The notes under the pieces were generated by a model, which saw only the letters and a program-made list of their open reading frames with translations, was not told where the DNA came from and made no database searches. Position numbers and translations under genes: made by a program. DNA of 64,000 bases from Amycolatopsis viridis (lineage in GTDB: Bacteria; Actinomycetota; Actinomycetes; Mycobacteriales; Pseudonocardiaceae): assembly GCF_011758765.1 (NCBI RefSeq), contig NZ_JAANOU010000001.1:2418001-2482000 (forward strand), read 5' to 3'. Positions 11,971-52,135 of the stretch are shown here, one piece after another (position 1 is the first letter of the stretch; each line of letters starts with the position of its first letter).

Positions 11971-12750
11971 TCAGCCGAGCCGGACGTCGTTGTGGGTGCT
12001 GCCAGGCCCGACCCGGACCGCCTGCCGCACCGGTGCGTGGCTGGCGGCGACCACGGTGTACGTGCCCGGTTCGAGGTCGTGGAAGGCGTAGCGGCCGTCG
12101 TCGTCCGCATGCGCCCTGCGGACCACGGTGCCCGCGTCGTCCAGCAGGCTCACCGTGATCCGCGGCCACGGCTGCGGCAGATCGCGCACGGTCACCGTGC
12201 CCTGCACGGTCGCCGCGTCGGACAGCTCGACGTCCTGCCGCACGGTCGCGTCGCTCACGGTGACCGCCACCGCCGCGGGCCGGTAGGCGGGTGCGTTGAC
12301 GGCGAGCGTGTAGACCCCGGCCGGCAGCGCGCCGAAGGAGTAGTCGCCGCCCTGCCCGGACAGGGACGAGCCGACCACCTCGCCGCGGAAGTCGGCCAGC
12401 AGCACCGTCGCCCCCATGACCGGGACGCCGGTCGACGCCGAACGGACCACGCCACCGAGCCCGGTCGCGCCCTCCAGCACCAGGTCGACACCGGCGGGGG
12501 AGTCGCCGACCGCCACCGTCGCGGCCGCCGGCCGGTACGCCGGGGCCGCGGCGATCACCACGTACCGGCCGCGGCCCGGCACGGGCAGCCGGTAGCCGCC
12601 GTCGCCGCCGGTGGTGCCCCGCGCGATCTGCTGCCCGCCGGAGTCCACCAGGGTGACGGCTGCGCCGGTCACCGGATCCCCTCCGGCCGACCGCACCCAC
12701 CCGGCCACCTCGGCGCCGCGGCCCCGCGGCGGGATCGGCGTGCCGGTCAT
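11971..12750 (-). CDS. Protein made of three carboxypeptidase-regulatory-like repeats
   Basis: 259 residues organised as three beta-sandwich repeats of about 80 residues. Each has the pattern V-G-x(n)-GAxV-L-D-x(n)-G-Y-x-L/F-G-LPAGxYTL-A-Y-P (for example DGGYRLPVPGRGRYVV and DGRYAFHDLEPGTYTV). No signal peptide or membrane segment is seen. Such transthyretin-like domains usually act outside the cell as binding or spacer modules. ATG at 12750 overlaps the stop of the upstream MFS fusion gene, whose C-terminus has the same repeats, so the two products probably bind the same ligand or each other. Confidence 0.7.
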   Translation of the reverse strand: MTGTPIPPRGRGAEVAGWVRSAGGDPVTGAAVTLVDSGGQQIARGTTGGDGGYRLPVPGRGRYVVIAAAPAYRPAAATVAVGDSPAGVDLVLEGATGLGGVVRSASTGVPVMGATVLLADFRGEVVGSSLSGQGGDYSFGALPAGVYTLAVNAPAYRPAAVAVTVSDATVRQDVELSDAATVQGTVTVRDLPQPWPRITVSLLDDAGTVVRRAHADDDGRYAFHDLEPGTYTVVAASHAPVRQAVRVGPGSTHNDVRLG

Positions 12751-15335
12751 GACCGCGCCTGCTCGGGCCGGCCCGCGTGCAGGGCGTGCAGGTCGATGTC
12801 GACGGTCGCCGACTCGCCACCGGTGAGGTCCACCTGCCGCACCGCGGGTTCGAACAGGCTGGTCACCACGCTGTAGTCGCCGGGCGGGAGGCCGGTCACC
12901 TCGTAGCCGCCCAGCTCGTCGCTCACCGCGGTCGCGGCGAGCTCGCCCGCGGCCGTGCTGACCTCGACCCGCGCGCCGGGAACCGGACGGCCGTCCGGGC
13001 CGGTGACCGTGCCGTGCAGCGTGCCGGCGGCCTGGACGAGCAGGTCGGCCACGGCGGGCTCGGTGCCGGACACCACGACCGTGGCGGCCGCCGGCCGGTG
13101 CCCGTCCAGGTGCGCGGTCACCGTGACCTCCCCGGCGGGCAGGCCGGTGAGCTGGAACGTGCCGTCGGCGAGGGTGAGCGTCCGGCCGAGCACCTGACCG
13201 TCGCCGCCGGTGGCGACCACGGCGGTGTCCCCGGCGCCGGCGCCGCCGGGGGAGAGCCGGACGATGCCGGTCACCGTGCCGCCACCGGCCACCACGAAGT
13301 CACGCACCGCGCCCGACCCGGTCACGGTCACCGCGGCCGCCTCCGGCCGGAACCCGGGTGCGGTCACGATCACGGTGTAGGTGCCCGGCGGCAGCCCGGA
13401 CACGACGTAGCCGCCGTCGGCGCCGGCCCGGGTGCGCCCGGCCTGCGTGCCGTCCGGGCCCGTCACGGTCACCACCCCGCCGGGCGGCGCGCTGCCGCCG
13501 GCGGTGCGCAGACGGCCGGAGATCCGGCCCGGCCCGGCCGCCCCGGTTTCGTCGCCGGTCACGTCGACGACCTCGCCCGCGGCGGCGGCCAGCTCGGAAC
13601 CGGCCGTTTCGTGCGGCTGCCCCGGCGCGGTCTTGGGCGACCGCCCGGTGAACCAGGACGCGGCCGCGGCCACCACCGACGCGATGATCGCGAACCAGAA
13701 CGCCGCGGTCAGGCCGTCGGCGAACGGGCCGGAGATCAGCTGCGGGAAGAAGCTGCGCCCGGTGAGGTACGCGGCCTGGTCGGGCGGCAGGGTGGGCAGC
13801 ACACCGCCGAGGAGCTGTTCGATCGGGTTGTAGCCGAGGAAGGCGGCGAACAGCACGCCGACCGGTGGCAGCACGGCGATCTGGTTCGCGTCCGCGGTGG
13901 GCACGCCGTGCGCGGTCAGGCCCTGCGCCATCGCCGAGGGCAGGTGGTCGGCGAGCCCGGCGATCATCAGGCTGAAGAAGAAACCGATCGACAGCACCAT
14001 CGCCGAGTTCTGGAACGTGGCGGTCATGCCGGCGCCGGCGCCGCGCGCGTTGTTCGGCAGGCTGTTCATCACCTCGGCCCGGTTGGGCGAGGTGAACAGG
14101 CCCATACCGAGCCCGTTGAGCAGCAGGATCGCGGCGAAACCCCAGTAGTTGAAGTTCACCGGCAGGACCTCGAGCAGGATGAAGCTGACCGCGGTGAGGA
14201 GCATCCCGCCGGTGGACAGCAGCCGGCCGCCGATGCGGTCGGAGATGATGCCGGACACCGGCGCGGCGATCAGGAAGCCGACCGTCAGCGGCAGCATGTA
14301 GATGCCCGCCCACAACGGGGTCTGCTCGAAGCTGTACCCGTGTTGCGGCAGCCAGATGCCCTGCAGCCAGATGATCAGCACGAACTGCAGGCCACCGCGG
14401 CCGAGCGAGGCGAGCAGGTTCGCCAGGTTGCCGAAGGTGAACGCGCGGATCTTGAACAGCCCGAGGTTGAACAGCGGGTTCGCCACCCGCGTCTCGATGA
14501 GGCAGAAGATCAGCAGCACCACAACGCCGCCGATGAGGCAGGACAGTACGAACGGGCTCGTCCAGCCCATGGTGTGCCCGCCGTAGGGCTGGATGCCGTA
14601 GGTGATGCCGACGAGCACGGCGATGAGACCGACCGCGAAGGTCAGGTTCCCCCACCAGTCCATCCGGGCGCGGTGCCGTTCGCTGGTGTCCTTCAGCTTC
14701 AGGTAGGCCCAGATGGTGCCGAACACGCCGAACGGCACGGACACGAGGAAGACCAGCCGCCACTCGACCGGGCCGAGCAGCCCGCCGATCACCAGGCCGA
14801 GGAACGAGCCTGCGATGGCGGCGACACCGTTGATGCCCAGCGCCATGCCGCGCTGGTGCTTGGGGAAGGCGTCGGTGAGGATCGCGCTGGAGTTCGCCAT
14901 CAGGAACGCGCCCCCGATGCCCTGCACGATCCGCCAGGCGATCATCCAGATCGCCGCGGCGCCCCCGCTCATCCAGGTGACCGCCAGGAAGATCGACGAC
15001 ACCGCGAACACGGCGAAGCCCAGGTTGTACATCCGGACCCGGCCGTACATGTCGCCCAGGCGCCCGAACCCGACCACCAGCACCGCGGTGACGACGAGGA
15101 AGCCCATCATCATCCACAGCAGGTAGCTGGTGTTCGACGGTTCGAGCGGGTTGATGTCGATGCCGCGGAAGATGTCGGGCAGGGCGATCAGCACGATCGA
15201 GGAGTTGATCGTGGCCATCAGCATGCCCAGCGTGGTGTTGGACAGCGCGATCCACTTGTAGTGCGGACCGAGCGCCGGGGGCCGGTGCCGGGGGGTACCC
15301 GCTTGCGTCTGCGGGGCAGACTGCACTTCCATCAC
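12747..15335 (-). CDS. DHA2-type MFS exporter fused to C-terminal carboxypeptidase-regulatory-like repeats
   Basis: 862 residues. Residues 1 to about 555 form a 14-segment MFS drug-exporter domain with the loop motif GRLGDMYGR after segment 2. A linker follows (about 560-600), then three transthyretin-like repeats to the end, matching those of the neighbouring gene. DHA2 proteins have cytoplasmic termini, so the repeats should face the cytoplasm, which is unusual for this fold. ATG at 15335 or the next ATG at 15332 can start the protein. The substrate is unknown. No adjacent regulator is present. Confidence 0.8.
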   Translation of the reverse strand: MMEVQSAPQTQAGTPRHRPPALGPHYKWIALSNTTLGMLMATINSSIVLIALPDIFRGIDINPLEPSNTSYLLWMMMGFLVVTAVLVVGFGRLGDMYGRVRMYNLGFAVFAVSSIFLAVTWMSGGAAAIWMIAWRIVQGIGGAFLMANSSAILTDAFPKHQRGMALGINGVAAIAGSFLGLVIGGLLGPVEWRLVFLVSVPFGVFGTIWAYLKLKDTSERHRARMDWWGNLTFAVGLIAVLVGITYGIQPYGGHTMGWTSPFVLSCLIGGVVVLLIFCLIETRVANPLFNLGLFKIRAFTFGNLANLLASLGRGGLQFVLIIWLQGIWLPQHGYSFEQTPLWAGIYMLPLTVGFLIAAPVSGIISDRIGGRLLSTGGMLLTAVSFILLEVLPVNFNYWGFAAILLLNGLGMGLFTSPNRAEVMNSLPNNARGAGAGMTATFQNSAMVLSIGFFFSLMIAGLADHLPSAMAQGLTAHGVPTADANQIAVLPPVGVLFAAFLGYNPIEQLLGGVLPTLPPDQAAYLTGRSFFPQLISGPFADGLTAAFWFAIIASVVAAAASWFTGRSPKTAPGQPHETAGSELAAAAGEVVDVTGDETGAAGPGRISGRLRTAGGSAPPGGVVTVTGPDGTQAGRTRAGADGGYVVSGLPPGTYTVIVTAPGFRPEAAAVTVTGSGAVRDFVVAGGGTVTGIVRLSPGGAGAGDTAVVATGGDGQVLGRTLTLADGTFQLTGLPAGEVTVTAHLDGHRPAAATVVVSGTEPAVADLLVQAAGTLHGTVTGPDGRPVPGARVEVSTAAGELAATAVSDELGGYEVTGLPPGDYSVVTSLFEPAVRQVDLTGGESATVDIDLHALHAGRPEQARS

Positions 15336-15378
15336 TCCAACCAGGGGAAGTCCGTCGCCAGTGACCGATCCGGAAAAA

Positions 15379-15400
15379 TTAGTTGACCTATGCTAACTGA
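15379..15400. promoter_or_regulatory. AT-rich promoter/operator patch upstream of the MFS fusion gene
   Basis: An AT-rich stretch with half-sites AGTT (15381-15384) and AACT (15395-15398) in inverted orientation, 10 bp apart, lies 44-65 bp upstream of the MFS start. It is a plausible promoter with a repressor site. No -10/-35 pair can be set with confidence. Confidence 0.35.
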
Positions 15401-15513
15401 TTTTCCGCGGATCGAGTGAGAGCGCTCGCGGGTTTCGGCCCCGTGATCCCGGTCGCATCAGCCTGGCGCAATCCGGAAAAATCTGATGACACCGCCACTA
15501 AACGGACCCGCCC

Positions 15514-15720
15514 AGCAAACCCGCCGCCCGGACCGGCAAACACGCCGCCCGCTCCGGCGAACACGCCGCCGGGAGCGGCGAACACGCCGCCCGGACCGGC
15601 AAACACGCCGCCCGGACCGGCAAACACGGCGCGGGGAGCGGCAAACACGGCGCAACCGGCGTGTTTGCCCGTGGGCGCGGCGTGTTTGCCCTTGCGGGCG
15701 GCGTGTTTGCGTGTGCGGGC
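15514..15720. repeat. Mirrored array of 21-bp units (seven in one orientation, three inverted)
   Basis: Units of 21 bp begin at 15514, 15535, 15556, 15577, 15598, 15619 and 15640, most reading GGCAAACACGCCGCCCGGACC with small changes. From 15658, three units read in the opposite orientation (GGCGTGTTTGCC at the head of each: 15658, 15679, 15700). At the junction a 10-bp stem (GGCAAACACG/CGTGTTTGCC) can form, and outer units can pair too. The unit is seven codons long, so frames across it read like VFAGPGG repeats, but no start or protein context supports translation. The array lies just after the 3' end of the DinB gene, so it may end transcripts. Confidence 0.9.
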
Positions 15721-15741
15721 GGGGGCGCCGCGGGCGGGGGC

Positions 15742-16218
15742 TCAGGAGCGGGTGCGGGCGAGCAGGATGTCCCGGGTCAGTTCGAGCTGCCCGTGGTGCT
15801 GGGCGAGTTCCTCGAGGACGTGCACCAGGGCGGCGCCCTGCCGCTGCCCGATCGGGGTGCCGGCGTACCGGGCCGGGACGTCGCCGCGCGGCGGGGCGGC
15901 GAAGTCGGCGGCCGCGATGTCCCGCCGCAGCTGGTCCTTGGCCTGCGCGACCCGGTCGAGCAGGGGCGCGACCGGTCCCGAGGAGGTGAACTCGGCCTCG
16001 CGATCCCGGTCCACGGTGCGTCCCGCGACGACGTGACCGGCCCAGGCGGCCATCACCCCGAGGCAGTGGGTGACGATCGCGTACGGCGAGTTGGCGCCGG
16101 GCAGGTCCGGCCGGGTGTTGGCGAGCTCGTCGCCGAGCGCGGCGAGGATCGCCGTCATGCCGTCGAGCGCGCGGTCGGTGAAGTACAGGAAGGTCTCCTC
16201 GTCCAGCATGATCGTCAT
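15742..16218 (-). CDS. DinB/DUF664-like four-helix protein
   Basis: 158 residues from the ATG at 16218 (a later ATG at 16209 is also possible). A histidine in VTHCLG and an HVLEELAQHHGQLE segment supply the metal-binding histidines of the DinB/mycothiol-dependent enzyme fold. In actinobacteria such proteins include mycothiol S-transferases and many uncharacterised enzymes. It is divergent from the PEP mutase-like gene, 83 bp apart, and is followed by the 21-bp array. Confidence 0.7.
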   Translation of the reverse strand: MTIMLDEETFLYFTDRALDGMTAILAALGDELANTRPDLPGANSPYAIVTHCLGVMAAWAGHVVAGRTVDRDREAEFTSSGPVAPLLDRVAQAKDQLRRDIAAADFAAPPRGDVPARYAGTPIGQRQGAALVHVLEELAQHHGQLELTRDILLARTRS

Positions 16219-16301
16219 TGTCCGGGAAGCGCCGCGCGCACGGCGACCGGAGCCGGATCGCATCGGCCGCCGCCGACGGGTTCCGGCGCTACCGTCCGGA
16301 C

Positions 16302-51949: not shown

Positions 51950-52135
51950 GGCCAACTCGCCGCCACAACCAGCAAACACGCCGCCGCCAGCGGCGAACAC
52001 GCGGCCGGGAGCGGCGAACACGCCGCCGGTGTCGTGTTTGCCCTTGCGGGCGCCGTGTTTGCTGTCCGGGGCCTCGTGTTTGCTGGTCCGGTCGGTGTGT
52101 TGGCGCTGGCGGGCGCTGGGTTGGCCGTGGCGGGC
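51950..52135. repeat. Second mirrored array of 21-bp units
   Basis: Units begin at 51950, 51971, 51992 and 52013 in one orientation (for example AGCAAACACGCCGCCGCCAGC), then at about 52031, 52052, 52073, 52094 and 52115 in the inverse (for example GTCGTGTTTGCCCTTGCGGGC). The units match the array at 15514-15720 in length, core (CAAACACG) and mirrored layout. The array lies between two convergent genes (stops at 51854 and 52144) and may work as a bidirectional terminator. Confidence 0.85.

Follow-up and report, generated by a model that had tools for sequence, protein, structure and literature searches.

Tandem repeats of short units, partly intergenic and scattered through the genome, have been described in prokaryotes as satellites, and Amycolatopsis mediterranei is listed with 23 of them in the survey of Subirana and Messeguer (2019; PMC6749651). 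The abstract of that survey attributes transposed non-coding families made of repeats longer than 30 nt to just two organisms, Leptospira interrogans and Methanocella conradii. The 21-bp repeat arrays of Amycolatopsis viridis analyzed here are of the same general nature, being short-unit, dispersed and intergenic. In contrast, their mirrored layout and their division into a conserved box and a variable linker are not described in the portions available of the survey, where no 21-bp Amycolatopsis family is mentioned either (PMC6749651). Titles and abstract openings among the matches listed in the open-access literature on the motif and on Amycolatopsis repeats do not describe the family either. 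The BrickBuilt MITE of Porphyromonas gingivalis is likewise dispersed and contains a tandem repeat, of 23 nt, but is bounded by a leader and a tail with small inverted-repeat ends, whereas no fixed ends were detected in A. viridis and the array itself flips (PMC4596501, as far as its accessible text goes). REP, BIME and REPIN elements are likewise dispersed, intergenic, found in both orientations and reported to contain protein-binding sites; according to the portions available of PMC2817692 and PMC3116915, REP units are palindromic and alternating, whereas here same-direction blocks of non-palindromic units meet at an axis and the RAYT transposase is absent. Among the precedents found, BldC of Streptomyces comes nearest: this actinobacterial protein occupies a variable number of 9-bp direct repeats arranged head to tail (PMC5859096, in the text available). 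BldC sites are described there as AT-rich (AATTxxxxC), contiguous and located in promoters, unlike the present boxes, which read GCnAACACG, lie 12 bp apart and avoid promoters. Finally, U-less 'I-shaped' terminators of mycobacteria, hairpins within 50 bp of stop codons, resemble the arrays in being GC-rich inverted repeats that lie close to stop codons, in actinobacteria of likewise high GC content (excerpts of the review PMC12288462). Those terminators are described as hairpins just past the stop, whereas the arrays consist of multi-unit arms with chance-level nested complementarity and include one-armed members. Taken as a class, the arrays fit the broad kind of dispersed bacterial minisatellite and not REP/BIME, CRISPR or a canonical terminator.

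The window, that is the entire 64,000-nt stretch of DNA analyzed, belongs to the A. viridis genome (G000; 5.68 Mb, one contig), which was compared in particular to a sister genome (G001) and to a more distant one (G010). The array of interest extends from 15515 to 15710, so that the limits given in the preliminary description (15514-15720) were correct to within about 10 bp, and its succession of seven direct and three inverted 21-bp units was confirmed. The direct, or '>', arm (15515..15652, plus strand) consists of seven units starting at 15515, 15536, 15557, 15578, 15599, 15620 and 15641, in steps of exactly 21 bp, each made of a 9-bp box GCnAACACG followed by a 12-bp linker; the box of the first unit reads GCAAACCCG. 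At the mirror axis (15641..15668, unstranded), two boxes face each other across a 10-bp linker, GCAAACACG-N10-CGTGTTTGC. The inverted, or '<', arm (15657..15710, minus strand) holds three units whose cores begin at 15657, 15678 and 15699, and is stretched to 15722 by TRF. Nine exact boxes are found in 210 bp, whereas no such span has more than one in any of 50 copies of the window simulated with a first-order Markov model. A second mirrored array of the same family, with four '>' and four '<' units between convergent genes, is located at 51951..52104 (unstranded).

The first array sits between two leftward genes. Upstream lies a gene of the DinB_2 / mycothiol-S-transferase family according to Pfam (15742..16218, minus strand), which is read towards the array and whose stop codon is 31 bp away; on the other side is an MFS transporter gene with three C-terminal CarboxypepD_reg stretches (12747..15335, minus strand). 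The location at the 3' end of a DinB gene proposed initially was right as to the neighboring stop codon, but incomplete, as the array also precedes the MFS start by 179 bp, and the gene label has to be amended to DinB_2.

A search of the genome and its relatives revealed that the array is not unique. In A. viridis, at least 63 multi-unit array segments are distributed across 57 intergenic gaps of the window and the stretches examined, a lower bound drawn from the matches listed; three additional arrays, not counted among the 63, were found in other stretches. The scattering of copies inside genes that the preliminary description had named as evidence against itself was not observed, since none of the 63 segments falls within a gene called by a home-made codon-usage script (used in place of a standard gene finder). 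Single-unit matches were excluded from this count, and all 10 matches inside called genes are of that type. The 9-mer CGTGTTTGC occurs 252 times on both strands of the genome, against 10 for a reversed control, and pairs of boxes at a distance of 21 bp number 96, the control giving none.

With A. viridis included, 11 of 61 genomes contain the strict two-box pattern, the others being 9 of its 18 congeners and one member of another genus. Across the taxonomic family it was found in 11 of 297 genomes, which represent 2 of 46 genera. The carriers that bear a name all belong to Amycolatopsis (deserti, acidicola, sp. GM8, alkalitolerans, arida and tucumanensis). The repeat family is patchy and mostly confined to the genus. 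In one genome (G009), array matches lie at most about 90 bp from the starts of contigs C10, C15 and C145, so arrays probably break assemblies and are under-counted as a result. A three-unit pattern also gave six single matches in other phyla, in short one-directional 21-bp repeats with other linkers; the repeats at these loci of unrelated phyla (L080, L083, L084, L086, L091 and L100) hold GCAAACACG-like words and are treated as chance or convergent.

The unit consensus, GCAAACACGCCGCCCGGAGCG, combines the conserved 9-bp box with the 12-bp linker and is not palindromic in itself, palindromy arising only between opposite arms. Adjacent units were compared in A. viridis, with units supplied from the register taken into account; they differ in 254 of 4104 comparisons (6%) at box positions 1, 2 and 4-9 and in 1442 of 4617 (31%) at linker positions 13-21; the corresponding values for the more distant genome are 16 of 872 and 357 of 981. 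The contrast in divergence is therefore five-fold in the former and twenty-fold in the latter. It is not created by detection bias, since it persists among middle units identified through their neighbors, in which mismatches to the consensus amount to 4.1% in the box and 24.6% in the linker in A. viridis (n=379), and to 1.1% and 16.7% in the distant genome (n=66). Box position 3 varies as freely as the linker, as would be expected of a base without protein contact. Spacing is equally constrained: 411 of 442 same-strand intervals are exactly 21 bp, or two helical turns, 18 more are of 42 or 63 bp and only 13 are off register. The 119 array-free gaps, out of 317, that could be aligned end to end between the sister genomes display an indel/substitution ratio of 0.122 (94 to 770), which predicts about 0.55 indels per adjacent unit pair. 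Unequal exchange may lower this expectation and, through concerted evolution, could hold the 21-bp register by itself, so that the spacing is a strong argument without amounting to proof. Linkers within an arm are identical at 6.1 of 9 positions and orientation flips within arrays, which is unlike the unrelated spacers of CRISPR; being mirrored and intergenic, the layout does differ from simple direct repeats, REP pairs and CRISPR, as had been noted from the outset.

A conserved site, a free linker and helical-turn spacing, all three of them observed here, are the properties expected of a phased protein-binding array. The interpretation tentatively favored, with close to even confidence, is that each element is a phased row of DNA-binding sites for a putative protein, copied by tandem duplication. 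According to this model, a dispersed minisatellite family whose rows in A. viridis usually flip once, inward, would be recognized at its box, at the DNA level, by a putative sequence-specific protein that would bind box after box along the same face of the DNA. Each array could then serve as a cooperative binding platform, architectural or acting as a roadblock between genes; copies would be generated through tandem duplication or unequal exchange, and tolerated wherever they disturb no promoter. Among the three functions offered by the preliminary description, binding of a protein fits the conserved box, free linker and two-turn phasing best, while a transcript-ending or RNA-stabilizing role received no specific support. 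A DNA-level role is preferred over an RNA-level one because array orientation does not consistently follow transcription, some arrays have a single arm and pairing does not appear to be conserved. Two observations run against the binding rows: the flip is not phased everywhere, as outward arms in other species are separated by 10-103 bp, and the inward bias seen in A. viridis and in the distant genome is not explained by binding alone. The putative binder would not be essential to the genus, as half of the congeners (9 of 18) lack the strict two-box pattern. Amycolatopsis is a genus used for antibiotic production, and the boxes, if bound, would represent an undescribed chromosome-wide protein-DNA system.

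Placement of the arrays is strongly skewed. The 57 array gaps of A. viridis comprise 30 convergent, 23 codirectional and 4 divergent gaps, as compared to 113, 380 and 185 of 678 background gaps drawn from the window plus other stretches selected because they surround array sites (convergent enrichment, p 4e-9). In codirectional gaps, the median distance is 64 bp to the upstream stop and 164 bp to the downstream start, and some arrays begin 3-4 bp past a stop codon. The distant genome is similar, with 27 of 44 arrays between convergent genes and 2 between divergent ones (one 3-unit match inside a gene was left out). When the 150 bp upstream of starts are barred, the numbers expected in convergent, codirectional and divergent gaps become 28.3, 23.3 and 5.4, against 30, 23 and 4 observed. 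With less sequence barred, a convergent excess calculated by available bp is retained at 60 bp (p 0.0045) and 80 bp (p 0.028) and fades at 100 bp (p 0.11), where the excess by gap number still gives p 0.019. Promoter avoidance can account for array placement. The position after a gene, which had been regarded as a functional hint, loses that value since exclusion of promoter regions alone reproduces it; for the same reason, the preference for 3' ends and convergent gaps was discarded as evidence for a terminator.

Flanking sequences of the sister genome are mostly 93-98% identical to those of A. viridis, which allowed the same array sites to be compared in both. At 30 shared sites chosen in A. 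viridis, the array is longer in that genome at 29, with 338 units against 128, or about 2.6-fold. These sites exclude 32 of the 63 entries, which had no two-flank partner in the stretches of the sister genome, and one pair merged with a neighbor. As the sites had been picked in A. viridis, the comparison was repeated on sites chosen from the sister genome: 10 of 14 could be paired (4 being without partner), of which 9 are longer in A. viridis and one is a tie. The sister genome has units at 27 of the 30 sites and never in a direction missing from A. viridis (for example, 19 '<' units against 4); at the site of the window array it retains two '>' and one or two '<' units. Five of the 44 sites of the distant genome have both flanks within an A. 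viridis array locus examined, and in four cases these flanks border the array gap. On these alignments, the array positions are old and the number of units has shifted one way genome-wide, either by growth in A. viridis or by loss in its sister. A one-directional shift at fixed sites throughout the genome points to a cause acting in trans, and suggests that such a change took place in one lineage. Loss of NucS mismatch repair was considered and rejected, since this nuclease was identified in each of the 19 genomes examined. The fuller scenario, in which dozens of two-turn-phased, direction-switching arrays would be bound by a putative architectural or roadblock protein and one lineage would have recently enlarged nearly all of them in trans, is a possibility put forward speculatively. 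The pair of genomes constitutes a built-in experiment, with near-identical flanks and a marked difference in units, in which the consequences for expression, for nucleoid structure and for the stability of the repeats lend themselves to direct comparison. If the boxes are not bound, the family would still be a clear bacterial case of genome-wide one-directional minisatellite change.

That second outcome corresponds to the most serious alternative, doubtful as it is: a selfish or neutral minisatellite, which duplicates readily in tandem and would spread and be retained only at sites where it is harmless. Its tandem units, whose copy number varies at many loci between the sister genomes whichever of them the sites are chosen from, are those of a dispersed minisatellite; its patchy presence within the genus and a placement that fits passive avoidance of promoters are also in keeping with it, as are the many arrays of the distant genome that share similar outer flanks by eye, in the manner of a dispersed composite repeat. 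A neutral repeat should nevertheless diverge evenly along its unit, whereas box and linker do not, and register-breaking spacings are rare. A selfish repeat recognized by its own mobilizing enzyme would escape the box/linker objection. Without that provision, the selfish-repeat reading covers placement and turnover, not the contrast between box and linker.

A bidirectional transcription terminator or 3'-end RNA element, in which the mirrored arms would form a hairpin in transcripts arriving from either side and stop or stabilize them, is considered unlikely. Transcribed into RNA, the window array has a folding energy of -173.3 kcal/mol (z -6.2), as expected of any inverted repeat. The innermost hairpin is compact, with facing boxes 9-12 bp apart in 34 of the 39 inward axes of A. 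viridis and a linker of 10-13 bp in 18 of 18 axes of the distant genome, corresponding to axis distances of 15-18 and 16-19, respectively; this flip linker is close in length to the 12-bp linker of direct units. The overrepresentation of convergent gaps described above and the precedent of U-less terminators in mycobacteria (PMC12288462, in the part available) would agree with such a role, but the placement is matched by promoter avoidance. Convergent gaps that bear an array less often have a separate hairpin (6 of 31) than the gaps used for comparison (12 of 31 in A. viridis and 33 of 89 in the sister genome), a weak hint of a terminator role, while in codirectional gaps their density per free kb is alike (1.32 vs 1.29). 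At site 2023909 of A. viridis, a strong GC hairpin is found in both species and the array in A. viridis only. No terminator-like site (GC hairpin with U-tract) was detected in the 15300-16300 region, examined for the window array only, and the four Rfam matches are all below gathering scores.

Pairing between the arms, too, speaks rather against the RNA element. Nested linkers are complementary at 4.76 of 9 positions (n=68), which does not exceed chance, as same-array partners give 4.65 and partners from other arrays 5.24. Variable core positions of the innermost box pairs covary with p 0.25 in A. viridis and p 0.04 in the distant genome, the latter being the sole result in favor of a nested RNA hairpin under selection, a proposal that was dropped as unsupported by linker complementarity and core covariation. 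Array architecture is also variable. The number of units per cluster in A. viridis varies between 3 and more than 20, and one-armed arrays persist under a relaxed scan, for example with 13-19 units in one direction; two-armed arrays of the distant genome are fairly uniform, with 2-5 plus 1-4 units. At loci of other species, outward axes (16) outnumber inward ones (7). The palindrome with nested hairpins of the preliminary description is accordingly real as a mirrored layout, common in A. viridis, yet it is not a conserved property of the repeat family, because nested linkers are not complementary beyond chance, one-armed arrays exist and arms elsewhere point outward. The longer arm is not consistently tied to gene direction, being sense in 11 codirectional gaps and antisense in 9 in A. 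viridis, and sense in 2 and antisense in 9 in the distant genome.

Several features of the arms were recorded separately. Arms often facing outward around a non-repeat core are seen at L081, L087, L092, L104 (A. acidicola), L097 and L099, and at L017 and L019, and AACTCG replaces AACACG in some units of other-species loci. Among the A. viridis clusters, 36 have their longer arm co-oriented with the replication fork and 17 have it opposed, with 4 ties (p 0.013). Of the two-armed arrays on contig C1 of the distant genome, 21 have a longer '>' arm and 2 a longer '<' arm, with 11 ties. This holds on both sides of dnaA, so the replichore bias did not replicate and no claim is made of it.

Several transposase-binding sites per end are the layout of Tn7-like elements, and the arrays could conceivably derive from a transposon or MITE that has lost its cargo and kept its ends, an origin that is very improbable. 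The presence on each side of several same-direction sites of about 21 bp, inverted with respect to each other, and the uniformity of two-armed arrays in the distant genome, many with outer flanks in common, would be compatible with this origin. It is opposed by the lack of fixed ends in A. viridis, where unit numbers range widely and one-armed forms occur, by arrays that start almost immediately after a stop codon, and by the flanks themselves: once repeat units are masked, 126 flanks of A. viridis yield 16 matching pairs and no common flank, 14 of the 15 pairs listed being weak and one strong. An REP/BIME or REPIN-like element mobilized by a RAYT (Y1 transposase) can practically be dismissed despite the intergenic, dispersed, inverted arrangement and high copy number, as the unit is not palindromic and PF01797 (Y1_Tnp) has no match in A. 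viridis, its sister or the distant genome (one partial match among 19 genus genomes), the absence of RAYT from these three genomes contradicting such mobilization.

A flank of about 228 bp with 76% identity is common to the A. viridis arrays at 514398 and 1117769, and is perhaps a duplicated gene end. In the distant genome, the outer flanks of arrays L191, L192-L195 and L198-L203 are alike by eye (GTTGCCGGGCGGCG...GTCCCGGA plus the hairpin GTCAAGGCGGGAAAGAGTACCTTGAC); on this visual comparison, these arrays are a composite interspersed repeat.

The window contains other repeats and features in addition to the arrays. The MFS transporter gene (12747-15335) is adjoined by a gene made of CarboxypepD_reg domains (11971-12750). 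It is preceded by a 20-nt direct repeat (ATCCGGAAAAAT...) at 15368-15387 and 15471-15490, the two copies being 85% alike and 103 bp apart; this repeat is mostly retained in the sister genome and is a possible operator. Between 32971 and 33566, a 146-bp tandem repeat (2.4 copies, 97% matches) runs into a 157-bp repeat (81% matches).
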